From the IMG/VR virus record IMGVR_UViG_3300049057_000084, positions 1 to 39,779 of that record: 39,779 nucleotides of DNA; one strand, 5' to 3'. The position numbers and the translations under genes were made by a program. Source of the stretch: a virus. This document shows positions 1,565 through 39,779 of the stretch, one piece after another (position 1 is the first letter of the stretch; the number at the start of each line of letters is the position of its first letter). The notes beneath the pieces were generated by a model that had not been told where the DNA came from, did no database searches, and saw only the letters and a list, made by a program, of their open reading frames with translations.

Positions 1565-2518
1565 ATGAAAATAATCGCTGAAATTGGCTCTAACTGGCGC
1601 TCGCTTAACGACTGCTTAAACTCTATCGCGCTAGCTAAAGCGTGTGGTGCTGACGCTGTTAAGTTTCAAGCGTATGACTGGCGCTCACTTTATGGCTTTG
1701 GCGCCGTACTTAACCCGCATGAGCTAAATCTAAGGGGCATTCTCGATCCCGCCTGGCTACCCACTCTCAAAGCCAAAGCCGACAGCGTGGACATTGAATT
1801 TATGTGCTCAGCTTTCAGCGTGCCTTTGCTAAACGAAGTAGATAAGTACGTTAGCACTCACAAGGTCGCCAGCGCTGAGCTAACTCACATCCGCATCTTA
1901 GAGCGCCTGCGCGAAATCGGTAAGCCCGTAATCTTGAGCACAGGCGCTAGCAGCATGAATGATATTGCAATAGCGCTAAAGGTGTTGGGCGATACGCCAG
2001 TGACGCTCTTGTATTGCGTGAGTGCCTATCCAGCGAATTATGTGAACTTTAGGAAGATAGACTTGCTGAGAATGAAGTTTCTAAAGCCCGTTGGCTATTC
2101 GGATCACTCGACTGACGCTATTGTTATTCCTATGACCGCAAAGATGTATGGCGCGACCGTTATTGAAAAGCATGTTAACTTGGTTGGCGTTAAAGATACG
2201 CCTGACGCACCACACTCACTAAATACTGATCAGTTTAAGGCTATGTGTAATGCTTTAATCGAGGAGGATGGGTATCGAAGCTTACCCCTCGAGGACGATA
2301 GCGAGCGCGATATGTTTACTACGCATAACCGCCGCTTGATCGCCACGCGCGACATAAAAGCAGGCGAGCACTTCAAAGAAAACGAAAACTTTGGCATATT
2401 TAGAGCGTTAAAGCCTGACACGAAAGCTTTAAGCCCTTGGGCTATTGACAAGGTTAACGGGCATGAGTGTAAGATAGATATTAAAGCTGGCGATGGCATA
2501 CCGCCGGAAGCACTCTAA
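1565..2518 (+). CDS. neuB: NeuB/PseI/LegI-type nonulosonic acid synthase
   Basis: The product is 317 aa. NeuB-family enzymes condense phosphoenolpyruvate with a C6 amino sugar to make a nine-carbon nonulosonic acid (sialic, legionaminic or pseudaminic acid) in the cytoplasm. The start MKIIAEIGSN, CVSAYP (about 151-156), GYSDHS (177-182) and EKH (201-203) match the TIM-barrel signature. A C-terminal SAF (antifreeze-like) domain follows from about residue 255 (NRRLIATRDIKAGE). ATG 1565 follows TTTTGGAGGGGCGCTAAAA, a strong ribosome site, and is preferred over an upstream in-frame ATG at 1523. Length is slightly short for the family (usually about 335-350). It sits directly upstream of the large terminase, 22 kb from the other sugar genes. 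Which sugar it makes cannot be read from motifs, so neuB is a family label. Confidence 0.9.
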   Translation: MKIIAEIGSNWRSLNDCLNSIALAKACGADAVKFQAYDWRSLYGFGAVLNPHELNLRGILDPAWLPTLKAKADSVDIEFMCSAFSVPLLNEVDKYVSTHKVASAELTHIRILERLREIGKPVILSTGASSMNDIAIALKVLGDTPVTLLYCVSAYPANYVNFRKIDLLRMKFLKPVGYSDHSTDAIVIPMTAKMYGATVIEKHVNLVGVKDTPDAPHSLNTDQFKAMCNALIEEDGYRSLPLEDDSERDMFTTHNRRLIATRDIKAGEHFKENENFGIFRALKPDTKALSPWAIDKVNGHECKIDIKAGDGIPPEAL

Positions 2519-2564: not shown

Positions 2565-3896
2565 TTGTCGGCTGACGCTATAGAGTTTTATCCGCATAGT
2601 GATAAACAATCAGACGTTATATTTTCTGACGCTGAAATTACTGCTGCATCTACGGGCACTCAATGGGGTAAAACCCAAGCAGGCACGCTCTGGATGCAGC
2701 GGCAAATGTTCACATATACCGATCCGAAAGATAATTTCATTGTTGCCGCTCCAACTTACAAAATCTTACAACAATCAATCATTCCGTACTTCCTTTATCA
2801 CTTAAAGCCCTTCGGGAAATACAACGGCGCTGACGCTGTTTTTAAACTAAACGAAGGCGGGCAATGTTTTTTTAGAACTGAAACTGATCCTGACTCAATA
2901 GTTGGTATCCCGAACGTGCGCGCTGGTTGGCTTGATGAAGCTGGAAAGCTGCGCTTGTATTTTTGGGAGAATTACCTCGCTCGCGCTGCCGCGAAAGGCG
3001 CAAAGACACTACTAACGAGCTCACCTTACGCGCTTAACTGGTTTTGGCACAAGCTAATTAAGCCAGCGTCTACGGGCGCTCGTCCTGACGTTAAACTTAT
3101 TCGCGCAGCTAGTTGGGAAAATCCTTATCACACGCTACACGATCCCGCTAAGCGCCAAGCCATGCGCGAGACGATGGACGCTCGCCGCTTTAACATGATC
3201 TTTGGCGGTGAGTTTGGGCAAATGGCTGGGCTAGTTTATGACTGTTGGGATGATGCTCAAAACTATATCCCTGAAACAAAGCTCCCAGCTGGTACACGCT
3301 ACTACGGCGGCATTGATTGGGGCTTTACGGAGCCGTTTGCGCTAAAGATCCGCGCCGTGTTGCCATCAGGTGAGCAAATTGGCGTAAGCGAATTTTATAA
3401 ATCAGGCCAGACTATTTCTGACATTAAAGAAGTCTGCGCTAAAAAGCTCAAAATCTATAGCGTTGAAATGTTTTACTGCGATCCCTCTCAGCCTGGCGCA
3501 ATTCTAGAGCTAAACCGCGCGGGCATTCCAGCAGTAGCAGCTAATAACGACATACGCAGGGGCATTGACGCCCACTATGAGCTAATTAAAACGCGTAAGT
3601 ATAAAGAGTTTATAGGCGCATGCCCACACACGCAAGACGAGCGCGAAACCTACCACTATCCAGAGCCAGAGGATTTAGCTCCAGACGATAACGCTAAAGA
3701 GCGAAAGCCCGTACAGCAAAACGACCACTTAATGGATGCTGATCGCTACCTATCAATTTCGCTTAGCGCGGCCGCTGAGAAGCGAAAGCCCATTATTAGC
3801 GAGGGTAAGCCAAAAATACATCGCGATGACATGAGAACTTATTTTGAGAGTTTAAAAAAGAAACGTCCCGGCGGGAGGGTGATTAGTGATTACTAA
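2565..3896 (+). CDS. terL: Terminase large subunit
   Basis: The product is 443 aa and is the DNA-packaging motor ATPase and nuclease. A degenerate Walker A lies at about 29-38 (STGTQWGKTQ), Walker B at 119-127 with D124-E125, and the coupling motif TSSP at 151-154. The RNase H-like nuclease domain has candidate acidic residues D251 (GGIDWGF), D306 (FYCDPS) and D387/D391 (NDHLMDAD). The start is TTG 2565 with TAAAGAGC upstream; the N-terminus fits the family. It follows an intergenic repeat and overlaps the methylase gene by 11 bp. Headful packaging, as in P22-type phages, would agree with the circular assembly, but this is not proven. Confidence 0.92.
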   Translation: MSADAIEFYPHSDKQSDVIFSDAEITAASTGTQWGKTQAGTLWMQRQMFTYTDPKDNFIVAAPTYKILQQSIIPYFLYHLKPFGKYNGADAVFKLNEGGQCFFRTETDPDSIVGIPNVRAGWLDEAGKLRLYFWENYLARAAAKGAKTLLTSSPYALNWFWHKLIKPASTGARPDVKLIRAASWENPYHTLHDPAKRQAMRETMDARRFNMIFGGEFGQMAGLVYDCWDDAQNYIPETKLPAGTRYYGGIDWGFTEPFALKIRAVLPSGEQIGVSEFYKSGQTISDIKEVCAKKLKIYSVEMFYCDPSQPGAILELNRAGIPAVAANNDIRRGIDAHYELIKTRKYKEFIGACPHTQDERETYHYPEPEDLAPDDNAKERKPVQQNDHLMDADRYLSISLSAAAEKRKPIISEGKPKIHRDDMRTYFESLKKKRPGGRVISDY

Positions 3897-4848
3897 AGGA
3901 CTTCGCAATTATGGCATTCCTTATATGGGCTCTAAATCAGCGATAGTTAGAGACTTATTAAAAGTAATCCCATCAGCTGATAATTTCTATGATCTATTTG
4001 GCGGCGGTTTTTGCGTTACTCATTGTGCGCTAGAAATGTTTAGTCACAAGTGGAAAAACCTTTATTTTAACGAAATTAAAAGTGATGTAAGCGAGCTAAT
4101 TAAAGATGCTATAGCTGGCAAATATAACTATGAAAATTTTAAGCCAGAGTTTATCACGCGTGAAAAGTTTTTTAAAAATAAAGACACGTGTGCCTACACA
4201 AGACTGATTTGGTCCTTTGGAAATAATCAAAAGGACTATCTCTTCGGAAAAGAAATCGAGAGTCAAAAACGAAGTATGCACATGGCCGTAGTGTTTGACG
4301 AATTTGATAAATTCATGGTGGAGACTTTTGATTTAAAAAAATGGCCGAATGATCTTGATATAACTGGAAAAAGATTGTATTTAAAAAGAGTCTTAGCTAA
4401 GAAAAAACAACGTGTCGATCTCGAGCAACTCGAGCGCCTCCAGCGACTCGAGCAACTCGAGCAACTCGAGCGCCTCCAGCAACTCCAGCTCCAGCAACTC
4501 CAGCAACTCCAGCGACTCCAGATAACCTCACTTGATTACTCTAAAGTAAAAATAAAAAAGAACAGCGTTATCTACTGCGACATACCCTACCAAAATACCA
4601 CCAACTATTTACAAGAATTTGATTATGAGCGCTTTTTTGATTGGGCCGCCAAACATCCTATGCCCGTATTTATCTCCGAGTTTGAAATTAAAGATCCGCG
4701 CTTTAGTGTAGTGTTTGAAAAGCCACGTCCCCAGCGGCTCGCTGCTAACTCAAAAAACGGTAAGCGTAAAGTATTTATCGAAAAGCTTTACGCTAACAAA
4801 CAAGCGCTAGAGTTAATAAATAATTTTAAATTGGAGATATCAGCATGA
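3886..4848 (+). CDS. D12-class DNA N6-adenine methyltransferase with LEQ/LQQ repeat insert
   Basis: The product is 320 aa, an S-adenosylmethionine-dependent adenine methylase of the Dam/D12 class. Visible motifs are YMGSK (13-17), the SAM-binding DLFGGG (36-41) and the catalytic DIPY (232-235, a form of DPPY). GTG 3886 follows GGGAGGG at six bases. Residues 179-212 are a low-complexity insert of Leu-Glu/Gln-X triplets, encoded by a 9-bp tandem repeat, between the target-recognition part and the DIPY half. The methylase probably protects phage DNA from host restriction; no cognate endonuclease is adjacent. Target sequence unknown. It sits between terminase and portal genes, so it is probably expressed late. 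Confidence 0.85.
   Translation: MITKGLRNYGIPYMGSKSAIVRDLLKVIPSADNFYDLFGGGFCVTHCALEMFSHKWKNLYFNEIKSDVSELIKDAIAGKYNYENFKPEFITREKFFKNKDTCAYTRLIWSFGNNQKDYLFGKEIESQKRSMHMAVVFDEFDKFMVETFDLKKWPNDLDITGKRLYLKRVLAKKKQRVDLEQLERLQRLEQLEQLERLQQLQLQQLQQLQRLQITSLDYSKVKIKKNSVIYCDIPYQNTTNYLQEFDYERFFDWAAKHPMPVFISEFEIKDPRFSVVFEKPRPQRLAANSKNGKRKVFIEKLYANKQALELINNFKLEISA
4420..4521 (+). repeat. 9-bp coding tandem repeat within the methylase
   Basis: About eleven units of the form CTCSAGCRA run in frame and encode Leu-Glu/Gln-Gln/Arg triplets (34 residues). Units carry CTCGAG or CTCCAG, with one unit shortened by three bases. Repeat number can change by replication slippage without breaking the frame. The segment is predicted helical with Leu every third residue, which is not a canonical leucine zipper. 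Confidence 0.9.
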
Positions 4849-8510: not shown

Positions 8511-9434
8511 ATGGCATTAACATGGGGACAAGTGTCGGCCATTACGGAAAAGAAATTTATCCCTAAGATGGTAGACAACATTTTTGATTCTATGGTGCTT
8601 TTAAAGCGCTTTAAAGACGGAGACGTTTACGAATCTGTAGACGGCGGAACGTCGATCATGCAACCGTTAAACTACGCTACTAACTCAAGCGGCGGATGGT
8701 TTTCTGCTAACGATACTATGGACACTACTGACGTAGAATCAATCACGTCAGCTGAGTACGCTTGGTATCAAATGTACGATACTATTTCTATCAGCGGTAT
8801 GGACGAGCGTAAAAATAGTGGTGACGCTGCAGTTTTAAAACTCGTAAAAGAGAAAGTTAAAATTGCTGAGCAAACTGGAATGGATCGCTTGGGCACTGGC
8901 CTTTATAACGCTGGCTCAACATCTAACGCTATTATCGGTTTACGTGCGATCATTAACACGTCAAACACTATTGGCGGTATCTCGCAATCAAGCTACTCAT
9001 GGTGGCAAGGTAAGCTAGATTCTAGCACTACCACTTTGACCTTGGGCGCAATGGCGTCTCGCATGAGCGCATGTAGAATCGGTAGCGATAGACCAACTAT
9101 CATCCCTACTGACTCTACTTATTGGGATAAGTTTCACGGGCTCTTACAACCGCAACAACGCTTTCAAGATTCTAAGTCTGCTAGCGGCGGCTTTAGCTCT
9201 TTACTTTTCCAAGGCGTGCCAGTGGTTGACGATGCTCAATGCCCGTCAGGCTACATGTTTTTCTTAAACGAAAAATACTTAAAGCTTTACTACCATAAGG
9301 ACGCAAACTTTAAGTTTGAAGCATTCGCCAAACCTATTAACCAAGACGCAAAAGTAGCCAAAATCTTATGGATGGGCGCTTTAGCATCTTCTAACAACCG
9401 TATGCATGGCGCTATGAGCGCTCTGACTGCGTAA
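8511..9434 (+). CDS. Major capsid protein
   Basis: The product is 307 aa. It starts at ATG 8511 after CACGGAGGACACTC, a strong ribosome site, as expected for the most abundant virion protein. It follows the scaffold and precedes decoration-like proteins. The sequence has a mixed alpha/beta composition with aromatic-rich beta segments and a central long helix (AAVLKLVKEKVKIAEQTGMDRLG), compatible with an HK97-fold shell protein. No protease gene or long N-terminal delta domain is seen. It is a plausible acceptor for glycosylation by the neighbouring DUF115/Maf-like enzyme because many Ser/Thr residues lie in loop-like segments; that is inference. Confidence 0.8.
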   Translation: MALTWGQVSAITEKKFIPKMVDNIFDSMVLLKRFKDGDVYESVDGGTSIMQPLNYATNSSGGWFSANDTMDTTDVESITSAEYAWYQMYDTISISGMDERKNSGDAAVLKLVKEKVKIAEQTGMDRLGTGLYNAGSTSNAIIGLRAIINTSNTIGGISQSSYSWWQGKLDSSTTTLTLGAMASRMSACRIGSDRPTIIPTDSTYWDKFHGLLQPQQRFQDSKSASGGFSSLLFQGVPVVDDAQCPSGYMFFLNEKYLKLYYHKDANFKFEAFAKPINQDAKVAKILWMGALASSNNRMHGAMSALTA

Positions 9435-9447
9435 GGGGAGGTGACAT

Positions 9448-9900
9448 ATGGGATATAATGGAATTTCACCGATTTTCTTTAAAAGCGTTTCAAACGTAAC
9501 CGCCGTTGCTGACGTACAGCTTGGCACTCGCCGCGTAGAAAGCGGTGAGGAGTACGTTTACTGCTACAACAACACTGGCTCAAGCGTTACTCAAGGCGCT
9601 TTGATGATTAAGAGCTTAACCTCTCTTACTCGTTCAAGCACTGACGCTCTTGACTGGCCGCTTGTGTGCGTAAAGCACGCCGCCGTGCCAGCAGCAGAGT
9701 ACTTCTGGGGCTTAGTGCGTGGTGAGGCAAGCGTAATGTCAATTGCGATGACCGCTGGCGATCTACTAACTGTAGGCGCTGACGGTGCCGTTGCAACGTA
9801 TATTACAGCAACGCTACCGACTGGCGTTTTCATTGGTAAGGCGCTTAGCACGTCAACTGGCAACGCTCAACCAAACTGTCATTTAAGACTATTCGGTTGA
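9448..9900 (+). CDS. Head decoration-like protein
   Basis: The product is 150 aa, beta-rich, Ser/Thr/Ala-rich and acidic to neutral. It starts at ATG 9448 after AAGGGGAGGTGACAT, 13 bp behind the capsid gene. Composition (short hydrophobic strands alternating with Gly/Ser loops, for example TAGDLLTVGADGAVATY) and position fit a capsid-surface protein. The family is not recognised for certain. It is another possible substrate for the adjacent transferase. Confidence 0.5.
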   Translation: MGYNGISPIFFKSVSNVTAVADVQLGTRRVESGEEYVYCYNNTGSSVTQGALMIKSLTSLTRSSTDALDWPLVCVKHAAVPAAEYFWGLVRGEASVMSIAMTAGDLLTVGADGAVATYITATLPTGVFIGKALSTSTGNAQPNCHLRLFG

Positions 9901-9918: not shown

Positions 9919-10938
9919 ATGAGTCGAAAGGCTGAAATTACATTAGAGTTTCAAAACTACATCGAAGCGCCGCCAGTTTCAACTGATAGGCTTTACGGTA
10001 CTGCTGCGAGAAATGACGATATTACCGTCAAATCTTGGCGCGGTACTTGGCTAGCCCAAATCAAGGCAAACAAAAAGCGCTTTGGAAGTTTTAAAGACTA
10101 TGGTGTTGGGAAGCTTTTTGACAAATACGCAAAGCGTCCCGCGATTATCGCGGGCGCTGGCCCTTCGCTAAAACATAATGGACATTTGCTAAAAGATCGT
10201 GGCGACATTGCGCTTTTTAGCTGTCTCCATAACTTTCATTTTTTTGAGGACCAGGAAATATACCCCGATTACTACGTAACTTTAGACGCTGGCGATATTA
10301 CAGTGGGAGAAGTTTCAGAGGGCGGTAAATATGATCCTGAGTATTATTGGAACAAAACAAAAGATAAAAAACTAATTGCCTATATTGGCACTAGTCCGCT
10401 CTTGCTAGAGAAATGGCAGGGCGAGATTTATTTTTTCAATGCTCCAATGCCTGACGAATCTTTGAAAAAAGAAATTAACGAGATAGAGGAATTTCACACA
10501 TATATTTCGAACGGCGGTAACGTGCTTGGCGCGTGTCTGTATGCCGCGAAGGGTATTTGTGGAGCTAACCCGATAGCGTTTGTTGGTGCGGATTTTTGTT
10601 TCAGCTATGACAAAAAGTTTCACGCTTGGGATTCAAAGTATGACGCTAACCTTGGACACGTAATGCGTACTAACGACGTTTACGGCAACAAGGTTTTAAC
10701 GTGGGCGTCTTACATGGGTTTTAAATCGTGGTTTGATTTTGTCGCAATTAAAGTGCCCGGCATTTGGATAAATTGTACAGAGGGCGGAACTTTCGGCGCA
10801 TATCCTGACGGTAACATCATGGCGGTTAAGCAAATGGAGCTACAAGAATTTCTAGATATGTATTCACTAAATCGACACATAAAAGATCAATGCCTTGATC
10901 CTGAAAATGCAGCTTCTAAAGGTATTGTACTTTTTTAA
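9919..10938 (+). CDS. DUF115/Maf-like glycosyltransferase (MptE-like fold)
   Basis: The product is 339 aa with the hallmarks of the DUF115/MAF_flag10 family: the nucleotide-sugar loop AGAGPSL (78-84), PDYYVTLDAGD (116-126), SNGGNVLGA (197-205), PIAFVGADF (218-226) and NCTEGG (285-290). In bacteria Maf proteins transfer nonulosonic acids such as pseudaminic or legionaminic acid to Ser/Thr of flagellin; other members of the fold are pterin pyrophosphokinases (MptE). The phage copy is shorter than most Maf proteins (commonly 450-700 aa), so it is mostly the catalytic core. There is no flagellin here. It sits between head genes and starts after AAAAGGGGAGATATG, suggesting high late expression and a virion substrate. 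A function outside glycosylation cannot be excluded. Confidence 0.8.
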   Translation: MSRKAEITLEFQNYIEAPPVSTDRLYGTAARNDDITVKSWRGTWLAQIKANKKRFGSFKDYGVGKLFDKYAKRPAIIAGAGPSLKHNGHLLKDRGDIALFSCLHNFHFFEDQEIYPDYYVTLDAGDITVGEVSEGGKYDPEYYWNKTKDKKLIAYIGTSPLLLEKWQGEIYFFNAPMPDESLKKEINEIEEFHTYISNGGNVLGACLYAAKGICGANPIAFVGADFCFSYDKKFHAWDSKYDANLGHVMRTNDVYGNKVLTWASYMGFKSWFDFVAIKVPGIWINCTEGGTFGAYPDGNIMAVKQMELQEFLDMYSLNRHIKDQCLDPENAASKGIVLF

Positions 10939-10950
10939 AAGGGGTAAAAA

Positions 10951-11220
10951 ATGGCTTTCTCTATTTCTACAATTCATAACAGTGTGTTTGGCGATCTTCG
11001 CGTTGCGATTCTGTCATGCACTATTGATAGTGCTTCTGGTAACATTAACACTGGCTTTCAAAGTGTTTACGGCGCTCACATTATGCCGGGCTCAATGGCG
11101 ACAGCGGGCATCACGCTAGTTAGAAACGTAGGCTCTGGCGCCACAGCACGCGCAGGATACGTAAACGTAAATTCTGGCGCAGCGGGTGACGTTTTCGTTT
11201 TATCGGTTTACGGAAAGTAA
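10951..11220 (+). CDS. Small virion-like protein, 89 aa
   Basis: The product is beta-rich and Gly/Ser/Ala-rich (segments such as NVGSGATARAGYVNVNSG). It begins at ATG 10951 after AAAAGGGGTAAAA, a good ribosome site. It has no Cys-rich or catalytic motif. Composition and position among head genes suggest a small capsid-associated or head-completion protein. Family not recognised. Confidence 0.55.
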   Translation: MAFSISTIHNSVFGDLRVAILSCTIDSASGNINTGFQSVYGAHIMPGSMATAGITLVRNVGSGATARAGYVNVNSGAAGDVFVLSVYGK

Positions 11221-22814: not shown

Positions 22815-23130
22815 CCTATTGCTATGCACACTCTTATGCTCATGCGCGAGCGGCCCAGCTAAACCGCTAATGAAAATTGGCGTGCCTGACGTGCCAAATA
22901 ATCAAATCTATAACTGTATGACTACTAACGCCACATGGAAGGGCATCACGACGGCGCAAGGGCTTACCACGCAAAAGTTTCAAAGCATTGTAGCAACAAA
23001 AGCAATGCAGTGTCAGTGGGAGCCGCTAGCAACAATTGATAGGGGCATTTGCTTAGATGTTTTTAACGGCAACACTTTAATCGACTACCTACACGACTTA
23101 GAAAACTACATAAAATATAGGTGTAAATGA
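22783..23130 (+). CDS. Lipoprotein in lysis block
   Basis: The product is 115 aa, with a hydrophobic signal (IYSLLLCTLLCSCASG) whose lipobox-like LCSC predicts lipidation on Cys. The mature part contains several Cys residues and no known domain. It overlaps the preceding membrane-protein gene by 32 bp, in a different frame, as outer-membrane spanin subunits often do, but it is longer and not Pro-rich like typical Rz1. TTG 22801 is an alternative start giving a more compact signal peptide. Confidence 0.6.
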   Translation: MPQKSVLKIYSLLLCTLLCSCASGPAKPLMKIGVPDVPNNQIYNCMTTNATWKGITTAQGLTTQKFQSIVATKAMQCQWEPLATIDRGICLDVFNGNTLIDYLHDLENYIKYRCK

Positions 23131-23729
23131 TTGAGATGCGCTTGGCGATTGTTGTTGGTCACTCATTTGATAAACCTGGCGCATTGGGTATCTATCCTCT
23201 TAGCTTGCGCGAGTATAATTGGAATTTGGATTTATCTAATGTCGTTTACCGCTATGCCCGTGAAGCTGGATTAAACGCTAGAGTGTTTCTGCGCAATAAT
23301 CGTAATCTGGAAAAAACCTACGCCGACGTTAACGAGTGGTGCAATGGCGAAAATGCCGTTTGCGTAGAGCTTCACTTTAATGCGCTTGATGGTAAGTGCC
23401 GTGGGACTGAAACGCTCTGGGATGATGATCCCGCTGACGGTATAGAGTTTGCGCGCGAAGTGCATGAGGAGATTTGCTACGTGCTCGGTCGCAAAGGCAA
23501 GCTTGATCGCGGCTTAAGAAAAATAGCTAAGCCAGAGGAGCGTGGTTATCTAAATCTAAAGCTCATGAAAGCGCCTGGCTGTATCTTAGAGCCATTCTTT
23601 GGCGATAACGCTGACGATGCGATGCTTGGGCAAGCTAAATCTTGGGAGTACGCTAAGGCGATAGTAACTGCTAGCTATAAATTTATGATCAGAAAAGAGT
23701 ATGAGAATCCGCTACTAGACAAACAGTAG
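23127..23729 (+). CDS. N-acetylmuramoyl-L-alanine amidase endolysin (Amidase_3)
   Basis: The product is 200 aa. The zinc-amidase pattern is complete: H12 in VVGHSF, E29 in REYNWN, H83 in VELHFNA and catalytic E155 in ILEPFFGD. Amidase_3 enzymes cut the bond between MurNAc and L-Ala in peptidoglycan. There is no signal peptide, so release would need the adjacent holin-like proteins. It starts at ATG 23127 overlapping the preceding stop; ATG 23136 is an alternative. This is the phage lysis enzyme. Confidence 0.85.
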   Translation: MIEMRLAIVVGHSFDKPGALGIYPLSLREYNWNLDLSNVVYRYAREAGLNARVFLRNNRNLEKTYADVNEWCNGENAVCVELHFNALDGKCRGTETLWDDDPADGIEFAREVHEEICYVLGRKGKLDRGLRKIAKPEERGYLNLKLMKAPGCILEPFFGDNADDAMLGQAKSWEYAKAIVTASYKFMIRKEYENPLLDKQ

Positions 23730-24210: not shown

Positions 24211-24420
24211 ATGGAAAAAAACTTATTTATTTTACTTACAGCCTCTATCCTATTAAACGCTTACCTAATCTATAAGCTAAAATACCAAAAACTTAAAAAA
24301 ACTGAAACGTATGACGCTAAAGCCTTGATGGTAGACCTCATGCGCGGCGGTGCTTTAGTTGAGATTCGGCGCTTAGATCCTGAAAGCATTTTCTTGCGCT
24401 CACCACGGGAGCTAAATTGA
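24211..24420 (+). CDS. Small single-pass membrane protein, 69 aa
   Basis: An N-terminal transmembrane segment (LFILLTASILLNAYLIY) is followed by a basic then mixed cytoplasmic part (YDAKALMVDLMRGGALVEI). ATG 24211 is A-rich upstream. Its stop overlaps the TTG start of the dehydratase gene, so it is the first cistron of the sugar cassette. It could anchor something at the inner membrane; no family known. Confidence 0.55.
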   Translation: MEKNLFILLTASILLNAYLIYKLKYQKLKKTETYDAKALMVDLMRGGALVEIRRLDPESIFLRSPRELN

Positions 24421-25265
24421 AGGTCTTTATCAGCGGTATTACTGGCTCGCTTGGAACGGAAGTCACGCGCCAACTGCTAGAGCAAGGCGTGCATCAAATC
24501 ACTGGCTACTCACGCTGCGACCATAAACAAAAAGCATTCCCTTACAAAAAAGATGTGGCGCTTTACTTAGGCGATATCCGCGACCGTGACCGCTTGCTAG
24601 AGGCTACTCGTGGCGCTGACATTATCTTTCACTTTGCAGCTTTCAAGCACGTTGATAGCGCTGAGATCCAGCCAGAGGAGTGCATAGCTACTAATGTCGC
24701 TGGCACTAATAACGTTTTATTTTGTCAGCGCATGAATAAGATTAAGCGCGTAGTATTCACGTCAACTGATAAAGCGTGTGATCCGATTAACGTCTACGGC
24801 TGTACAAAGCTAATTGGCGAGCGCTTAGTTATGCGTAACCCAAACAATCTTGTTGCGAGATATGGAAACGTCATTGCTTCCAACGGGAGCGTTATCCCAT
24901 CGTTTGTTAAGACGCTAAAAAAAGAGCGCAAAGTCTATATCACTGACACTAACATGAATCGCTTTTTCATACGCCTAGAGGACGCAGCTGCTTTCGTTAT
25001 TGAAAACGGGCTTAACTCTAAGGGCGGAAAGTATATTCCTGAGATGAGAGCTTGCAGCATTGAGCAATTAGCTGACGCTGTGGCAAAGGTAATGCGCATT
25101 AAAACCTACGGCATGGTCAACATGGGCATTCGTCCCGGCGAAAAAATGTTTGAGCAGCTAGTTAGCCCACACGAGGGCACAGAGATTAGATCCGACAAAG
25201 CAACGCAATTTACGAAAAAAGAGCTTATTGAATTAATACGCCCAAGCGTGGAGGCACTCTTATGA
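24417..25265 (+). CDS. FlaA1/PseB-like nucleotide-sugar dehydratase
   Basis: The product is 282 aa, an extended SDR. The NAD(P)-binding motif GITGSLG is at 7-13; FAAFKHVDSAE and the catalytic STDKACDPINVYGCTKLIGE (T/D-K plus Y-x-x-x-K) follow the FlaA1/PseB pattern. PseB converts UDP-GlcNAc to a 4-keto-6-deoxy sugar with C5 inversion, the first step to pseudaminic acid; CapD/LegB-type relatives do related chemistry. TTG 24417 with GGGAG upstream overlaps the previous stop (TTGA). It overlaps the next gene by an ATGA junction. Slightly short against PseB (about 330 aa), so the exact product needs testing. Confidence 0.85.
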   Translation: MKVFISGITGSLGTEVTRQLLEQGVHQITGYSRCDHKQKAFPYKKDVALYLGDIRDRDRLLEATRGADIIFHFAAFKHVDSAEIQPEECIATNVAGTNNVLFCQRMNKIKRVVFTSTDKACDPINVYGCTKLIGERLVMRNPNNLVARYGNVIASNGSVIPSFVKTLKKERKVYITDTNMNRFFIRLEDAAAFVIENGLNSKGGKYIPEMRACSIEQLADAVAKVMRIKTYGMVNMGIRPGEKMFEQLVSPHEGTEIRSDKATQFTKKELIELIRPSVEALL

Positions 25266-25921
25266 GTAAGTTTCTAATCATTGGCAATAAGGGCTCTATG
25301 GGTAGGCGCTATACTGCGCTATTACGCCACTTCACGATGAAAGCTGACGGCATTGACGTTGATACGCCAGTTAACAACATCGCAGCTATTGCAAAAGATT
25401 ACGCTGGCGTGATTGTGGCTACACCTACAGATACGCACTTTGATATTTTAGTTAAGCTCAGTGATATCAAAAATGATATCAACATTCTTTGCGAAAAGCC
25501 GCTAACGAAGGGCGCTTTTGAGCTAGCAAAAATATGTCAACTTTATAAAGACAAAAACTTGCAAATGGTCATGCAGTATAAAGACCTAGATCTTGGCGGC
25601 GAGGGCGATAGTTTCTACGACTACTACAATCACGGTAGAGACGGCTTGCACTGGGACTGCTTACAAATAGTGGGCTTAGCGCGTGGGCGCGTAATGCTTT
25701 CCGAGGATTCGCCATATTGGAAGTGTCGGCTAAATGGCGCTGACTTAGACATCAAGAAAATGGATTACGCGTACAGCATGATGCTTCGGCGCTGGTTTAG
25801 AAATCCAAAGGGTGACTTGGGCTTTTTAACTTCTATTCACGATAAAGTAAGGGACATGATTGATGAGACATCAAGGGCCGCCGAAGCGGGTAGTGATCGG
25901 TATACAAGCGCGTTCTACTAG
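25262..25921 (+). CDS. Gfo/Idh/MocA-family oxidoreductase, short
   Basis: The product is 219 aa. The Rossmann start FLIIGNKGSMGRRY and the signature ILCEKPLTKG (about 75-84) place it in the Gfo/Idh/MocA sugar-dehydrogenase family. Full members usually have about 310-360 aa with a beta-sheet C-terminal substrate domain; here only the first ~120 residues and a short remainder are present. It overlaps the next gene by 59 bp. It may be a reduced but functional enzyme or a degenerated copy. Related proteins occur beside sugar-nucleotide genes in flagellar and surface-glycan loci. Confidence 0.7.
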   Translation: MSKFLIIGNKGSMGRRYTALLRHFTMKADGIDVDTPVNNIAAIAKDYAGVIVATPTDTHFDILVKLSDIKNDINILCEKPLTKGAFELAKICQLYKDKNLQMVMQYKDLDLGGEGDSFYDYYNHGRDGLHWDCLQIVGLARGRVMLSEDSPYWKCRLNGADLDIKKMDYAYSMMLRRWFRNPKGDLGFLTSIHDKVRDMIDETSRAAEAGSDRYTSAFY

Positions 25922-26597
25922 CCAAAGGCTACCGCGAAAAGTTCACGCTATTGTCGGCAAGAAAAGGGTTTTAGACCTAGTGCTAGACGCCGCTTCTGAG
26001 AGCGTTAACTATGTAAACACTGGCTTTAACGGGCGCGTGTTTTCGGAGTTTTGCCTGCTCGTGCCAACAGGTGACGAAATCGTAGAAGCGTTTCCCGATA
26101 ACTTTATTATTGAAGGCTCAGAGTTTGACGTTTTATCTAGATATAAAAAAATGTCCGATAGCTTAAAGCCAGACTATATCGTTAGAATTACCGCTGACTG
26201 CCCGCTAATCCCAAGCCACGTTATTACAAATATCATTAAAGTTGGCTCTATGAATAATTACGACTACGTCGCTAACTTTTTCGAGAAGGGCGATAAGCTA
26301 TTTCGGTTAGTGCCTGACGGTTTTGAGTGTGAGTTTTTCTCACGTAAAATGCTCTCTTGGGCGCATGAAAATGCTACTGAAAAATCAGACCGCGAGCATG
26401 TAACCACGATCATGCGCACATATCCAGAGGGGTATAAATACGGCGTTGTCATTCCGAAAGTGCCCTACACTGGCAAAAAATTAAGTATTGATACTAAAGA
26501 CGATTTAGAAACTATCAGCGACCTAAAGTCTTGCGTTGACGAGGCCGTACAGAAAGCGAGCGTGCTATTTGGCAAATCAAGCGTCCACCGCTATTGA
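25863..26597 (+). CDS. SpsF/NeuA-like cytidylyltransferase
   Basis: The product is about 244 aa. IQARSTSQRLPRKV, FDVLSRYKKMSD, ITADCPLI, DREHVT and LSIDTKDDLE match the SpsF/CMP-sugar synthetase branch of GT-A-like nucleotidyltransferases. Such enzymes activate nonulosonic acids as CMP-sugars for transfer. ATG 25863 follows TAAGGGA; TTG 25860 is one codon upstream. It overlaps both neighbours, consistent with a coupled operon. The substrate is inferred from the presence of a NeuB-like synthase and a Maf-like transferase in the same genome. Confidence 0.82.
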   Translation: MRHQGPPKRVVIGIQARSTSQRLPRKVHAIVGKKRVLDLVLDAASESVNYVNTGFNGRVFSEFCLLVPTGDEIVEAFPDNFIIEGSEFDVLSRYKKMSDSLKPDYIVRITADCPLIPSHVITNIIKVGSMNNYDYVANFFEKGDKLFRLVPDGFECEFFSRKMLSWAHENATEKSDREHVTTIMRTYPEGYKYGVVIPKVPYTGKKLSIDTKDDLETISDLKSCVDEAVQKASVLFGKSSVHRY

Positions 26598-27780
26598 TTA
26601 TGATTTACTCGACCGCTCACGCAAATGCATAGCGCAAGGCGCTTTAACTAATTCTAAGCGCCCGAGCGTTTTCGTCGAGAATGTTTACCCCGTGCATTTA
26701 GCCAGGGGCTACGGTGCGCACGTGTGGGATACTAAGCGCAATAAGTACGTAGACTTTATCTGCGGGCTTGGCTCTAATCTCTTGGGCTACGGCGACGTTG
26801 AAATTGCTAACGCTATTTACACCGCTGCTCGCGATGGGCTAACGCTATCGTTAGGCTCACCGCTTGAGGTTGAGTACGCTGAGAAGCTAAAAACTATTTT
26901 CCCGTGGGTTGATCACATTAAACTTCTGAAAACAGGTACCGAGGCGGGCATGAGCGCTATCAAGATTGCGCGAGCGTTCACGAGCCGTGAGCTTGTGCTA
27001 AGCGAAGGATACCACGGGTACTCTGACGATTTCGTATCGCTTACGCCGCCAGCTTTAGGCGTACCAAAGCGCCACTGGATGGGCGAGCTAAAGCATTGCC
27101 CGATTGACGATAGAGTCGCCGCTGTAATTGTAGAGCCTGTTATTACTGATGCAAGCGATAAGCGTAAAGCTGAGCTGCAATGGTACCGCGAGCAATGCAC
27201 TAAAGCTGGCGCACTGTTAATTTTTGATGAAGTTATCACGGGCTTCCGCTTTCCAAAGTTTAGCGTGAGCAATTACTTTGGCATTGAGCCAGATTTAATT
27301 GTGCTCGGGAAAGCTATTGGCGGCGGTATGCCGTTAGCAGTAGTCGGCGGTAAAAAAGCGATCATGAATGACGTGGAGTATTTCGTTAGCTCTACTTTCG
27401 CGGGTGAGCGCGCGTCGCTAGCTGCTGGCTTAAAAGTGATAGAGCTACTCAAAGGCAAGCGCCGCATAGAGGAGCTATGGATTGCGGGCGAGCAGTTTCA
27501 AGCTAAATTTAATAAGCTACATCCAGAGCTAAAAATTGAAGGCTATCCCACTCGCGGCGTGTTTAAGGGCGATACTTTAGTGAAGGCGCTTTTCTGGCAA
27601 GAGGCGTGCAAAGCGGGAATGCTGTTTGGCCCAAGCTGGTTTTTCAACTTTCATCACATACCGCTAATAGATGACGTTATCAGTGCGAGCAAAGATATTT
27701 TAACTAGAATAAAAACAGGCGCAATTGAACTTGAGGGCGAAATGCCAAAAGTTCCATATGCGCAAAAACAACGGGAGTAA
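26569..27780 (+). CDS. Class III PLP aminotransferase (HemL-like)
   Basis: The product is about 403 aa. PLP-enzyme motifs are KTGTEAGMSAIKIAR (phosphate loop), FDEVITGFR (D220-E221) and IVLGKAIGGGMPLAV with the Schiff-base K248. It resembles glutamate-1-semialdehyde aminomutase but lies in a sugar operon; HemL-like aminotransferases recur in surface-glycan clusters with SpsF and NeuB relatives as I recall. It could install an amino group on a keto sugar in place of a DegT/PseC-type enzyme. The start is uncertain: TTG 26569 is chosen; TTG 26536 would give 414 aa. It overlaps the cytidylyltransferase by 29 bp. Confidence 0.85.
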   Translation: MANQASTAIDYDLLDRSRKCIAQGALTNSKRPSVFVENVYPVHLARGYGAHVWDTKRNKYVDFICGLGSNLLGYGDVEIANAIYTAARDGLTLSLGSPLEVEYAEKLKTIFPWVDHIKLLKTGTEAGMSAIKIARAFTSRELVLSEGYHGYSDDFVSLTPPALGVPKRHWMGELKHCPIDDRVAAVIVEPVITDASDKRKAELQWYREQCTKAGALLIFDEVITGFRFPKFSVSNYFGIEPDLIVLGKAIGGGMPLAVVGGKKAIMNDVEYFVSSTFAGERASLAAGLKVIELLKGKRRIEELWIAGEQFQAKFNKLHPELKIEGYPTRGVFKGDTLVKALFWQEACKAGMLFGPSWFFNFHHIPLIDDVISASKDILTRIKTGAIELEGEMPKVPYAQKQRE

Positions 27781-27782
27781 TA

Positions 27783-28076
27783 ATGGTGCACATTTTAGGA
27801 CAAGAAAAGCTAGCCGACAAAATCGAAGCGTTTAAAGCAAAGCGCGCTAACATTGAAAAGCTACAAGCGGAAGTTAACGCTGAAAAGCGCCAGCTTGATA
27901 CGTGGGTAGCGACAACTGAGATTTGCAAGAAATGGCAAGCCAAAGCTGAAACGCTAAACAAGGAAGTTGAAACGTATAAAGCTGAAATGAAGGCGCAGTT
28001 CGGTATTGCCGATGGCGAGCGCACGGATATTTTAGAGCTAGTGCAAGCCATGAAGAAAGTAGCGACACTTGATTGA
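27783..28076 (+). CDS. Coiled-coil protein inside the sugar cassette, 97 aa
   Basis: A Lys/Glu/Ala-rich product (MVHILGQEKLADKIEAFKAK) predicted to be one continuous coiled coil to about residue 70, then a short mixed tail. ATG 27783 lies two bases after the aminotransferase stop, with GGGAGTAATA upstream. Its location between two sugar enzymes suggests a cassette-specific role or a passenger gene. Not recognised. Confidence 0.6.
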   Translation: MVHILGQEKLADKIEAFKAKRANIEKLQAEVNAEKRQLDTWVATTEICKKWQAKAETLNKEVETYKAEMKAQFGIADGERTDILELVQAMKKVATLD

Positions 28077-28593
28077 TTTTGGCTTTGGCGTAGCGCTTGG
28101 GCCAATCTCTGACACAATAGCGGAGCTTTTGCGCCTATGGCGAAACGATCCGAAAATCTATAAGTGGTGCCGCCAAGTCGGCCCTTTAGAGAAGTTTGAG
28201 CATGCGGCTTGGCTCAAGTCATTAGAGGCCGGGCGTCCTGACGTTAAGATGTTTTCTATTATTGTCGAAAACGCCAGCGTCGGCGCTTGCGGGCTAACTA
28301 GTATTGACTGGATAAATCGGCGCGCTGAATTTTCGCTTTATATCGCGCCCGAGGACCAACGCAAAGGTTACGCTAGGGCTGCGCTTAAAACACTGCTTAA
28401 GCACGGCTTTGAAAGCTTAAACTTGCACTTAATCTGGGGCGAGACGTTTGACGGCAATCCAGCCGCTAAAATGTTTGAAGCGCTTGGCTTTCGCAAAGAG
28501 GGCACGCGCCGAGAGTTTTATTTTAAAGAGGGGCGCTACATAGATGCGCACTTATACAGCGTTAAACGTGAGGAGGTCGTATGGACTGGCTAG
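28069..28593 (+). CDS. GNAT-family N-acetyltransferase (PseH/RimJ-like)
   Basis: The product is 174 aa. LRLWRNDPKIYKWCRQ, SIIVENASVGACGLT, the acetyl-CoA loop QRKGYARAAL and FEALGFRKEGTRREFYFKEG follow the Acetyltransf_3 type of GNAT. In pseudaminic acid synthesis PseH acetylates the 4-amino group of the UDP-sugar; this enzyme could do that or acetylate another amino sugar. TTG 28069 overlaps the coiled-coil gene stop by eight bases. Substrate is inferred from neighbours. Confidence 0.82.
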   Translation: MIDFGFGVALGPISDTIAELLRLWRNDPKIYKWCRQVGPLEKFEHAAWLKSLEAGRPDVKMFSIIVENASVGACGLTSIDWINRRAEFSLYIAPEDQRKGYARAALKTLLKHGFESLNLHLIWGETFDGNPAAKMFEALGFRKEGTRREFYFKEGRYIDAHLYSVKREEVVWTG

Positions 28594-28778
28594 CATTTGC
28601 TGTAGGCGTTGGCGTGGGCTATTTGCTTAAAGCTAACCCGCAAGCTACGGCTGACATTAAAGCGTTTGCCATAAGGCCGCTAGCGAAGCTTAAGGGCAAG
28701 CCTGAGCGTAGAGCGCCAAAGGTTAACGATGACCGCAAAGCGTGGGCGCGCGAGCAAGAGATTATTGGCGAGCGCTAA
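28581..28778 (+). CDS. Small membrane-anchored basic protein, 65 aa
   Basis: A Gly/Val-rich N-terminal hydrophobic segment (WLAFAVGVGVGYLL) is followed by a basic, Arg/Lys-rich tail. ATG 28581 follows GAGGAGGTCGT, a very strong site. It overlaps the acetyltransferase end by 13 bp and the convergent lipoprotein gene end by 17 bp. It is the last cassette gene. Function unknown; it mirrors the small membrane protein at the cassette start. Confidence 0.6.
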   Translation: MDWLAFAVGVGVGYLLKANPQATADIKAFAIRPLAKLKGKPERRAPKVNDDRKAWAREQEIIGER

Positions 28779-29001
28779 GCTCCTCTTTGCAAGCGGTTTG
28801 CGTAGAGTAGCCAGCTTGGTTGTTAGCGCACACAAAGCGCTTGCCTCTGCACTCAGCGGTCCACGTCCAGTCGCCGCCAACGTGCCATTCTTTATCTATA
28901 ATTTTAAGCTCGCTTGACGGGCAGCCAATTTGGCCTACGGTCATAGTCTCAAGCGATGAGCAGCCAGTTAAGAATATAGAAAATACGATTAGCTTTTTCA
29001 T
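28762..29001 (-). CDS. Small lipoprotein downstream of the repressor (putative lysogeny gene)
   Basis: The product is 79 aa on the minus strand. MKKLIVFSIFLTGCSSLETM is a textbook lipoprotein signal with lipobox LTGC. The mature ~65 residues contain four Cys (GCPS, ECRG, FVCAN, ACKEE) and a Trp-rich segment. It lies 31 bp downstream of the repressor on the same strand, so it is probably co-transcribed and expressed in lysogens. Small phage lipoproteins expressed this way can block receptors or inhibit DNA entry (T5 Llp is a known example of a receptor-blocking lipoprotein); that role here is a hypothesis. Confidence 0.65.
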   Translation of the reverse strand: MKKLIVFSIFLTGCSSLETMTVGQIGCPSSELKIIDKEWHVGGDWTWTAECRGKRFVCANNQAGYSTQTACKEELSARQ

Positions 29002-29032: not shown

Positions 29033-29350
29033 TTAAGCTCGACGAGGCATTTTGCCCCTAATCATGTTTTTTTTTAAGCCGCCGCCCAAAAGCTTTTGAG
29101 TCAAATCTCTAATGGCCTTTTCTTGGCGCTGTAATAATTCAGGATCTAAAAACAATTCGCTAGGGTGACACTCTAGGGCTTTTATAATGGCGTCTAAAAA
29201 AACTTTCTCGGGCCATCTTCGTCCGCTTTCATAGCCTTGAACGGTGGATAATGAAATTTTTGCGCGCTCGGCTAGGGCGTCTTGGGTAAGGTCTTTAGCG
29301 CCCCTTAACCTCTTTAAATTAGATGAAAATATGTCAGCAATATCCTTCAT
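29033..29350 (-). CDS. XRE-family repressor (CI-like)
   Basis: The product is 105 aa on the minus strand. The helix-turn-helix is clear (LTQDALAERAKISLSTVQGY, then ESGRRWPE). After it comes a helical region with Leu/Gln heptads but no LexA-like S24 peptidase domain, so it is not self-cleaving in the manner of lambda CI. ATG (complement of 29348-29350) follows TAGGGCCA. It is divergent from a Cro-like gene across a 96-bp operator region and leads a two-gene operon with the lipoprotein. It is the likely lysogeny master regulator. Confidence 0.75.
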   Translation of the reverse strand: MKDIADIFSSNLKRLRGAKDLTQDALAERAKISLSTVQGYESGRRWPEKVFLDAIIKALECHPSELFLDPELLQRQEKAIRDLTQKLLGGGLKKNMIRGKMPRRA

Positions 29351-36489: not shown

Positions 36490-36680
36490 GCAATTGGCAA
36501 AAGCGATTTAACAAACGCGTGCGGGAGATATGCAAGTGTGAATCTGGCAAGAGCCAAGTAAAGCGCGGAGATGCACAGACAGTGCTCGTGAACTTTGCTA
36601 AAGCGTTTGCGAAAAATCCAATACGCGAGAGCAGGTTTTTATTTCAGCTTGCGCTAAAGCATGAAGGGGTGCGCAAATGA
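36486..36680 (+). CDS. Hypothetical basic protein, 64 aa
   Basis: ATG 36486 overlaps the previous stop (ATGA). The product is basic and helical (MSNWQKRFNKRVREICKCES). No domain. It is coupled to the subtilase gene at its 3' end. Confidence 0.5.
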   Translation: MSNWQKRFNKRVREICKCESGKSQVKRGDAQTVLVNFAKAFAKNPIRESRFLFQLALKHEGVRK

Positions 36681-37834
36681 ATAAAACGGGAATGCGCAAA
36701 GTAATTTTATGGCTTGGTTTTTTAGGGAGCTTATTTTCAGCTTTTGCGTTTGGGCTCATGCTTTTTACCACGTACTTCGACAACGCCGACTACGTTCTTA
36801 TGCATAAAAGAATAGCAGGCATTGAGCTACGCACGTTTGCCAAAGATTACGGCAATGTGCTGGACGAAATGCCGGAAGCCAACGTGATTAAAATTAAAAC
36901 AAATTTTTTAAAAGCAAAAATAAACGCGTTTAGTGCAAGTGATGACGTGATCATAGAAAAAAACATCGCGTATAAAGCACTAATGGGCTGTCAGCCAAGC
37001 GCTACGCCGACACCTGCACCCACGCCTACCCCCGCACCAACTCCACCGCCAGGCGAGCCCGTTAATCAATTGCAAGATTGGTGGGCAACACGTGTTGGCG
37101 CTCAAAAGGTTAGCAAGTACGCGACCAACGTCCTAGTGGTTGTGCTAGACACTGGTTGCGTAAACAATCCGCAAATGCCAAAGCCGCATTCTTGCGCAAG
37201 CTTTGTTGGCGGCGATTCGCGCGATGTGTTCGGTCATTCGACCGCTGTAGGCTCTTTCGTTTACGCCACATCACACGCGCAAATCGCTTACGGCAAGGTG
37301 CTAACTGACAACGGTAGCGGCGATATCACTGCTATCGCTAACGGCGTGTACTGGGCTATTCGCATAAACGCTAAAGTAATTAACTTAAGTTTGGGCTCAC
37401 GCGAGTATTCGCAAATTTTAGCCTACGCAATAGAGCAGGCGCGTGCTGCTGGCATCTACGTGGTAGCTGCTGCTGGCAATGATGGCCAAGCTAGCGTTAG
37501 CCATCCAGCCGCACTCCCAACTGTAGCCGCTGTTAGCGCTACCACTCGCAGCGATACACTCGCGCGCTTTTCTAACTACGGCTCGCCAAAGATAGATTTG
37601 AGCGCGCCTGGCGAAAACGTCTTAGGCTTAGTGCCCATCGGTTGCGTAATGTGCCAGAATAAAAATGCCTACGCCGAAGTGATGAGCGGTACTTCATTCG
37701 CGGCACCTATCGCTAGCGGAGTCATCGCGCTCGCTATCGCTAATAGCACTAAAGTAATAGCTGACACTCAAAGCGACCGCACACGCTTTGGCTTTGGTAT
37801 CGTGCGCGCGGATCTAACAGCAGGTGCGCAGTGA
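36677..37834 (+). CDS. Membrane-anchored subtilisin-like (S8) serine protease
   Basis: The product is 385 aa. It has an N-terminal transmembrane or uncleaved signal segment (about 8-33), a short domain at 45-105 in the position of an I9-type propeptide (VIKIKTNFLKAKINAFSAS), a Pro/Thr/Ala linker (108-125) and an S8 domain from about 135. The full triad is visible: D158 in VVVLDTG, H187 in GHSTAVGS and S340 in SGTSFAAP, with oxyanion N268 in AAAGND. Intact motifs argue for an active exported protease tethered at the inner membrane. Subtilases are uncommon in phages. Possible roles are cleavage of envelope proteins, phage receptor removal or defence. ATG 36677 overlaps the previous stop. Confidence 0.9.
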   Translation: MNKTGMRKVILWLGFLGSLFSAFAFGLMLFTTYFDNADYVLMHKRIAGIELRTFAKDYGNVLDEMPEANVIKIKTNFLKAKINAFSASDDVIIEKNIAYKALMGCQPSATPTPAPTPTPAPTPPPGEPVNQLQDWWATRVGAQKVSKYATNVLVVVLDTGCVNNPQMPKPHSCASFVGGDSRDVFGHSTAVGSFVYATSHAQIAYGKVLTDNGSGDITAIANGVYWAIRINAKVINLSLGSREYSQILAYAIEQARAAGIYVVAAAGNDGQASVSHPAALPTVAAVSATTRSDTLARFSNYGSPKIDLSAPGENVLGLVPIGCVMCQNKNAYAEVMSGTSFAAPIASGVIALAIANSTKVIADTQSDRTRFGFGIVRADLTAGAQ

Positions 37835-39553: not shown

Positions 39554-39779
39554 AATTTGAAATCAAAAATAGATTCTCTGGTGCGTTAATTTTCTCTATA
39601 GAAACTGATTCTTGGCGATTAGCAGTCGAAGCGGCGATAAAATCTAAAGCGGACCTTCGCTATGCGGACCTTAGTTATGCGGACCTTCGCTATGCGGACC
39701 TTCGCTATGCGGACCTTCGCTATGCGGACCTTCGCTATGCGGACCTTCGCTATGCGGACCTTAGCTCTGCGGACCTTAG
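39550..39779 (+). CDS. Pentapeptide-repeat protein, N-terminal part (continues at 3-419)
   Basis: GTG 39550, behind GAGGGGGAAGG, opens a frame that begins [20 protein letters not shown] and then enters Ala-Asp-Leu-X-X repeats from about residue 34. The frame is open at the contig end and continues at position 128 once the duplicated 127 bp are removed, giving about 173 aa. The N-terminal segment is the capping part often seen before phage pentapeptide helices. It overlaps the previous stop by 4 bp. Confidence 0.85.
39653..39779. repeat. 127-bp terminal direct repeat (contig overlap), right copy
   Basis: This segment is identical to 1-127 and lies inside the pentapeptide coding repeat. It marks the circular closure of the assembly. 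One copy should be removed before counting repeats or genome length. Confidence 0.9.

Follow-up and report, generated by a model that had tools for sequence, protein, structure and literature searches.

The 39,779-bp virus record IMGVR_UViG_3300049057_000084, analysed here at its full length and referred to as the window, carries a cassette of predicted sugar-biosynthesis genes at 24417–28593, a NeuB-type synthase gene and, beside its capsid genes, a Maf-like transferase gene, and this module was found to belong to the core gene set of an uncultured podovirus-like clade and not to be the cargo of one phage. The genes very likely specify a cytidine 5′-monophosphate (CMP)-nonulosonic acid (NulO)-like pathway together with a transferase of sialyltransferase fold, and on balance we favour the view that the phage encodes its own variant NulO glycosylation system, by which the CMP-sugar would be put on a virion protein. 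Cells and flagella are coated by nonulosonic acids, the group to which sialic acids belong. The initial annotation had described the cassette as five enzymes in coupled order between the lysis block and the repressor and had read them, together with a synthase at 1565, as a variant NulO pathway. All five open reading frames (ORFs) were recovered and matched the named Pfam families, an amidase (23127–23729) and a Cro/CI-type helix-turn-helix (HTH) protein (29033–29350, minus strand) were located upstream and downstream of the cassette, respectively, and the synthase was identified as NeuB. The pathway assignment is well supported by homology, but it had been made for a single phage and had overlooked the Maf-like transferase, whose place by the capsid genes hints at the use of the sugar and suggests the modification of a virion protein. 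The genes concerned are as follows.

1565..2518, plus strand: NeuB-type nonulosonic acid synthase (PF03102, 4e-48, 164 bits)
9919..10938, plus strand: minimal Maf-like/MptE-like transferase with a sialyltransferase-like fold (PF01973, 2e-22)
24417..25265, plus strand: PseB-like homologue of uridine diphosphate (UDP)-N-acetylglucosamine (GlcNAc) 4,6-dehydratases (Polysacc_synt_2, PF02719, 2e-68)
25262..25921, plus strand: short Gfo/Idh/MocA-like, nicotinamide adenine dinucleotide (NAD)-dependent protein of ~210 amino acids (GFO_IDH_MocA, PF01408, 4e-8)
25860..26597, plus strand: SpsF-like cytidylyltransferase, candidate CMP-sugar synthetase (CTP_transf_3, PF02348, 7e-11)
26536..27780, plus strand: class III (HemL-like) pyridoxal phosphate (PLP) aminotransferase in the PseC slot (Aminotran_3, PF00202, 3e-39)
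28069..28593, plus strand: PseH-like GNAT N-acetyltransferase (PF13302, 8e-17)

Relatives of the Maf-like protein were found in at least 115 viral contigs, of which 80, with 50–73% identity, were kept. The Maf-like gene starts no more than 2.2 kb downstream of the major capsid protein (MCP) gene in all 74 of these loci holding both, and NeuB is encoded upstream of the terminase in 28 of the 31 loci that have at least 1.5 kb there; record G002 has NeuB further upstream. In profile searches covering 50 records, a large share of which are fragments, NeuB was found in 35, Polysacc_synt_2 and the class III aminotransferase in 23 each and CTP_transf_3 in 22. When the proteins of 21 long records were clustered, the portal, the large terminase subunit (TerL) and the class III aminotransferase were present in all 21; the Maf-like protein, NeuB, MCP, the putative decoration protein and the scaffold in 20; the SpsF-like protein and the GNAT in 19; the PseB-like protein in 18; the Gfo-like protein in 17; and an integrase in only 6. 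Selection of the records rested mostly on the Maf-like gene and, for three of them, on the aminotransferase, which biases the counts of these two genes; the other counts were not subject to direct selection. The initial annotation had proposed a search for the same gene set in other phages, and the set was found to recur in ~20 related records, almost always in the order NeuB-TerL-portal-MCP-decoration protein-Maf-...-tail-(p69)-PseB-Gfo-SpsF-class III aminotransferase-GNAT, which is far above chance.

The G+C content of the conserving records ranges over 46–57%, and the mean identity of the pathway proteins across the clade is 36–54%, yet the catalytic motifs have been kept. The NeuB motifs KFQ, SDH and EKH persist with scattered single substitutions, the T-x9-Y-x3-K triad of the window's PseB-like ORF recurs across the clade where the region is covered, the lysine of the CEKP motif in the Gfo-like protein is invariant, and the cytidylyltransferase and GNAT motifs are retained; the PLP lysine of the aminotransferase is present in all intact copies, the exception being a relic in record G008. 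When distance matrices of 16 records were compared in an exploratory way, with no correction for multiple tests, NeuB correlated with the class III aminotransferase (r 0.69; partial 0.57 given the phage backbone, p 0.0025). These two genes lie ~15 kb apart on the circular map, yet they correlate better than does the NeuB-adjacent TerL (0.33); NeuB distances also followed a tail protein (r 0.63). A peptide-pattern search for NeuB alone in viral contigs gave no match, while the profile search did find it, and the miss is probably due to divergence.

The five cassette enzyme ORFs lie on one strand and are almost gapless. The NeuB ORF opens at 1523, its conserved start is the ATG at 1565, and the terminase follows directly downstream. 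The NCBIfam NeuB and PseI models gave 161 and 151 bits without reaching the equivalog cut-offs, so that no subtype is assigned, and the closest solved structure was a pseudaminic acid synthase (8h2c, 1e-37). The best NCBIfam model for the PseB-like ORF was PseB (TIGR03589; 210 bits, below the curated cut-off), and the dehydratase triad T-x9-M/Y-x3-K was taken from a published study (PMC7439481). Using the Met/Tyr of this triad to tell inverting from retaining chemistry was considered and dropped, CapE having Met there and also epimerising. The SpsF-like profile matched the solved “Cytidylyltransferase” 6oew (9e-23) and synthetases of CMP-3-deoxy-D-manno-octulosonic acid (KDO). For the GNAT, PseH (TIGR03585) was the best NCBIfam match with 72 bits against a cut-off of 93, and the profile matched the solved PseH 4xpk (3e-11), but spermidine acetyltransferases scored above PseH. 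The aminotransferase was matched best by hemL-type NCBIfam models (189–201 bits); its identity as HemL glutamate-1-semialdehyde aminomutase was rejected, TIGR00713 giving 189 bits against a cut-off of 527, and the protein was classed as a class III relative only. With all NCBIfam scores below their curated cut-offs, the cassette and NeuB proteins are regarded as homologues, not as certified orthologues. Two smaller ORFs accompany the cassette, the second of which was absent from the initial annotation.

24211..24420, plus strand: 69-amino acid membrane-like ORF (p69) directly 5′ of the cassette, of no known family (17 of 21 records by clustering)
27783..28076, plus strand: 97-amino acid ORF between the aminotransferase and acetyltransferase genes, no Pfam match (a similar ORF with 42% identity in record G001)

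Of the features of the textbook pathway for pseudaminic (Pse) and legionaminic (Leg) acids, the NeuB-type synthase, the dehydratase triad and CTP_transf_3 were found, and DegT and PseG/NeuC were not. The absence of a DegT-type PseC and of PseG, already pointed out for the window, extended to the clade: DegT was found in none of the 50 records, and the UDP-sugar hydrolases PseG (PF04101) and LegG/NeuC (PF02350) in none of the 21 records at an E of 0.1. Furthermore, none of the unassigned core clusters of the 21 clustered records was conspicuous as a hydrolase. It had been suggested that either the host completes the route or the HemL-like and Gfo/Idh-like enzymes define a different sugar. Wherever a clade member has the cassette, the class III aminotransferase fills the PseC slot, and this constancy speaks for a different route rather than for a PseC that chance hosts would provide. 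The AlphaFold2 model of the Gfo-like protein (predicted local distance difference test [pLDDT] 93.7) was closest in fold to the UDP-sugar 3-dehydrogenases WlbA/WbpB and GnnA, and its list of fold matches also contained an NAD-dependent glycoside hydrolase. NAD-dependent glycosidases exist in the Gfo/Idh-type superfamily, and a redox-neutral release of UDP by the Gfo-like protein is conceivable but speculative.

The Maf-like ORF scored 80.3 bits with PF01973 against a curated cut-off of 34.6, and the domain was also present in records G001, G002 and G008. PF01973 is the central “Maf_flag10” domain of flagellin glycosyltransferases and resembles CstII; known Maf enzymes O-glycosylate Ser/Thr using CMP-NulO donors, accept several CMP donors including CMP-KDO, and act on flagellin with specificity for the cognate one (PMC11339370). 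An AlphaFold2 model built from a 59-sequence alignment (pLDDT 94.4) had as its best PDB match the Maf glycosyltransferase 5MU5 (Foldseek E 3e-10; Z 22.5, 239 residues, 2.8 Å), with the MptE pterin kinase 8sd5 second (Z 14.5), and it also matched the sialyltransferases ST8SiaIII (Z 9.6), CstII (Z 9.3) and ST6GALNAC2 (Z 9.0). Several of the sialyltransferase structures matched were solved with CMP or CMP-sugar analogues. In addition, hhalign aligned the phage profile with a 575-amino acid bacterial Maf-like protein, itself retrieved with that profile, at 97.6% probability over 250 columns. The phage protein has 339 amino acids and a single Pfam domain, and because the flanking N-terminal (Maf_flag10_N) and C-terminal helical domains of Maf are missing, it is classed from its predicted domains as a Maf-like minimal variant and not as a canonical Maf. 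Its gene lies directly 3′ of the capsid (8511–9434) and putative decoration (9448–9900) genes and showed a median ratio of nonsynonymous to synonymous substitution rates (dN/dS) of 0.05 in 11 close pairs; no usable close pairs were available for the cassette genes. PHROGs held no counterpart of the window protein, three weak matches being found among its 59 relatives (best E 0.002), and tblastn with the protein against phage and plasmid collections gave no match. The profile also had no match in 379 genomes of one phylum, a search that was run without a positive control and is uninformative.

In the proposed pathway, in which every enzymatic step and the order of steps are assigned from homology, the PseB-like enzyme would dehydrate UDP-GlcNAc, the class III aminotransferase, replacing PseC, would aminate the keto sugar, and the PseH-like GNAT would acetylate the aminated sugar. 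UDP would be removed by a host enzyme or by the short Gfo/Idh-like protein, NeuB would join the free sugar and phosphoenolpyruvate into the nine-carbon acid, and the SpsF-like enzyme would form the CMP-sugar. The Maf-like transferase may then act in the cytoplasm and O-glycosylate Ser/Thr of a virion protein as heads assemble or earlier. The candidate acceptors are encoded on both sides of the transferase gene.

8511..9434, plus strand: MCP, SU10-like with a weak match (PF17236, 4e-4, below the cut-off)
9448..9900, plus strand: conserved small protein, putative decoration protein by position only, no Pfam match
10951..11220, plus strand: 89-amino acid conserved protein after the Maf-like gene (19 of 21 records)

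Both small proteins have 20% Ser+Thr on average, and the one at 9448..9900 is always flanked by the MCP and Maf-like genes in the long records. No close cultured relatives of the window were found; the annotated capsid proteins of Myxococcus phages Mx8/Mx9, with 31–33% identity by tblastn, were among the best relatives of its MCP. A stronger proposal is that the clade makes NulO by a new route, with the class III enzyme for PseC and the Gfo/Idh-type protein for PseG, and that the capsid-linked minimal Maf regularly sialylates capsid or decoration proteins, such that NulO-coated virions would be a basic feature of the lineage; this is possible, and we put it forward only tentatively.

Several observations weigh against a phage-encoded NulO system acting on the virion. 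With no UDP-sugar hydrolase found in the 21 records, the pathway is incomplete by known enzymes. The PF01973 family also holds pterin kinases, and a virion protein as the acceptor, which we consider fairly probable, is deduced only from gene position and cytoplasmic assembly. The distance matrices of the Maf-like and pathway proteins showed no tracking beyond the phage backbone. Record G008 is without NeuB, SpsF, PseB, Gfo and GNAT, but has kept the Maf-like gene, and no other case argues as strongly that the Maf-like protein has a role beyond NulO; record G040/L075 has no NeuB upstream of TerL. These two records indicate that the pathway and the transferase can come apart. G008 is a natural pathway loss, in which a decayed relic of the class III aminotransferase lacks the PLP lysine (L180:8140-9090), and because Maf enzymes tolerate several CMP donors (PMC11339370), a host CMP donor could serve its Maf-like protein. 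G002 is without PseB and Gfo and keeps the remaining module genes, as if the host supplied the first intermediate. In the same record, the NeuB frame ends at a TAA before the antifreeze-like C-terminal domain (L010:14233-15123), which could be a real truncation or a sequence error, and an HNH-endonuclease-like gene, read by eye, separates the SpsF-like gene from that of the class III aminotransferase (L010:1450-1914), which points to gene mobility within the cassette.

The possibility that the cassette makes another sugar, such as a 3-amino or 2,3-diamino sugar formed by the logic of WlbA/GnnA (oxidation by the Gfo-like protein, transamination and acetylation), and not one of Pse/Leg type, is a minority one that deserves attention, as the Gfo-like model is closest to the UDP-sugar 3-dehydrogenases WlbA and GnnA and a class III aminotransferase stands in place of DegT. 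However, nearly every record has NeuB and the SpsF-like protein, which suggest a CMP-activated ulosonic acid, and PseB- and PseH-like enzymes are encoded within the same cassette. The two readings would be compatible if the product were a NulO whose amino pattern is unusual. It is unlikely, in our view, that the same pathway and transferase serve host flagellin or another cytoplasmic or surface protein, with a function in motility, receptor masking or phage exclusion. Flagellin is the substrate of known Maf enzymes (PMC11339370), the known phage NulO genes epaA/epaB change the host capsule (PMC12053666) and some clade members have an integrase, but Maf enzymes show specificity for the cognate flagellin (PMC11339370), the transferase gene is in the head module beside the capsid gene in every record tested and inspection of the window proteins revealed no second glycosyltransferase. 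An integrase in 6 of 21 records, against a near-universal module, is also a poor fit to lysogenic conversion as the main use.

Alternatively, the PF01973 protein could act as a head-assembly factor or as a pterin kinase like MptE, and the NulO-like sugar made by the other genes could have another use. MptE does belong to the family and was matched by the model, and G008 retains the gene without the pathway, but the match to Maf 5MU5 is clearly higher (Z 22.5 versus 14.5), CMP-sialyltransferases match too, and the gene co-occurs near-universally with NeuB and the SpsF-like gene, which makes this alternative quite improbable. Chance host genes, acquired as auxiliary cargo or through an assembly chimera and without a phage-specific role, can hardly account for the module: the homology to bacterial sugar-nucleotide genes is countered by the clade-wide conservation, the synteny and the intact motifs across records of differing G+C content. 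Among the matches listed, the best bacterial aminotransferases were only 29–39% identical, and none of those listed had a NeuB or SpsF neighbour that the phage profiles could detect.

The window has a 127-bp direct terminal repeat at its ends and is probably a complete genome; the repeat sits within a 15-bp tandem array, because of which circularity and completeness are not certain. This array (1–200 and 39649–39779) makes up the terminal repeat and encodes pentapeptide-like repeats of A(D/N)LxY type. The window proteins include a P22/SU10-like portal, an SU10-type adaptor, an integrase and HTH regulators. Just past the cassette, on the minus strand (28762–29001), is a small lipoprotein-like ORF (CPSSELKI...TWTAECRGKRFVC), and similar ORFs occur at the equivalent place in G001 and G002. 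A D12-class DNA adenine methyltransferase (3886–4848) contains an internal Leu/Gln-rich repeat (~100 bp in 9-bp units, 4420–4521), and a subtilase-family (S8) peptidase with an N-terminal membrane segment (36677–37834) is unusual for a phage of such size.

No published case of a phage with most of a de novo NulO pathway and a dedicated transferase, and no precedent for phage Maf, DUF115 or NeuB systems, was found in the literature searched, which included few of the subscription papers and preprints. Should virions carry the sugar, the particles of a large uncultured clade would present a negatively charged, sialic-like surface, which could influence stability, adsorption, decay or grazing. 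In that case, the phage would also offer a protein-O-NulO transferase that is minimal and single-domain and has a nearby, probably multi-copy acceptor, which might find use in glycoengineering. With PseC and PseG lacking throughout the clade, the existence of an alternative NulO route becomes directly testable.

The bacterial Pse/Leg flagellin glycosylation systems with Maf, as in Campylobacter, Aeromonas and Clostridium, share with the phage the NeuB-type synthase, the PseB- and PseH-like enzymes, the cytidylyltransferase and a PF01973 transferase of sialyltransferase-like fold. In contrast to these, the phage transferase has ~339 amino acids, lacks the flanking Maf domains and is encoded beside the capsid gene and not beside flagellin, and the phage set is without DegT and PseG/NeuC and has an extra short Gfo-like protein. 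The sps pathway of Bacillus subtilis (SpsC–SpsG, SpsM), which puts CMP-legionaminic acid on spores, shares the SpsF-type cytidylyltransferase, the SpsE-type synthase and the T-x9-M/Y-x3-K dehydratase, and UDP-linked precursors are expected (PMC7439481). Bacillus needs SpsG, which is without a counterpart in the phage, where amination is assigned to the class III enzyme and a Maf-like transferase is present. The Acinetobacter prophage genes epaA/epaB (PMC12053666) and the phage NulO O-acetyltransferases (PMC6586298) are likewise phage genes acting on nonulosonic acid, but they modify host-made pseudaminic acid or capsule and encode no synthesis together with a protein transferase. In mycobacteriophages such as Maravista, phage glycosyltransferases have been proposed to modify the capsid protein, and in the parts of that report consulted a nonulosonate pathway or a Maf-type transferase is not described (PMC11256854). 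Thus, the phage system is Maf/NulO-like and departs from the textbook Pse/Leg pathway at two points and from canonical Maf at one, and it counts as a new variant because it has no DegT, no PseG/NeuC and no flanking Maf domains.

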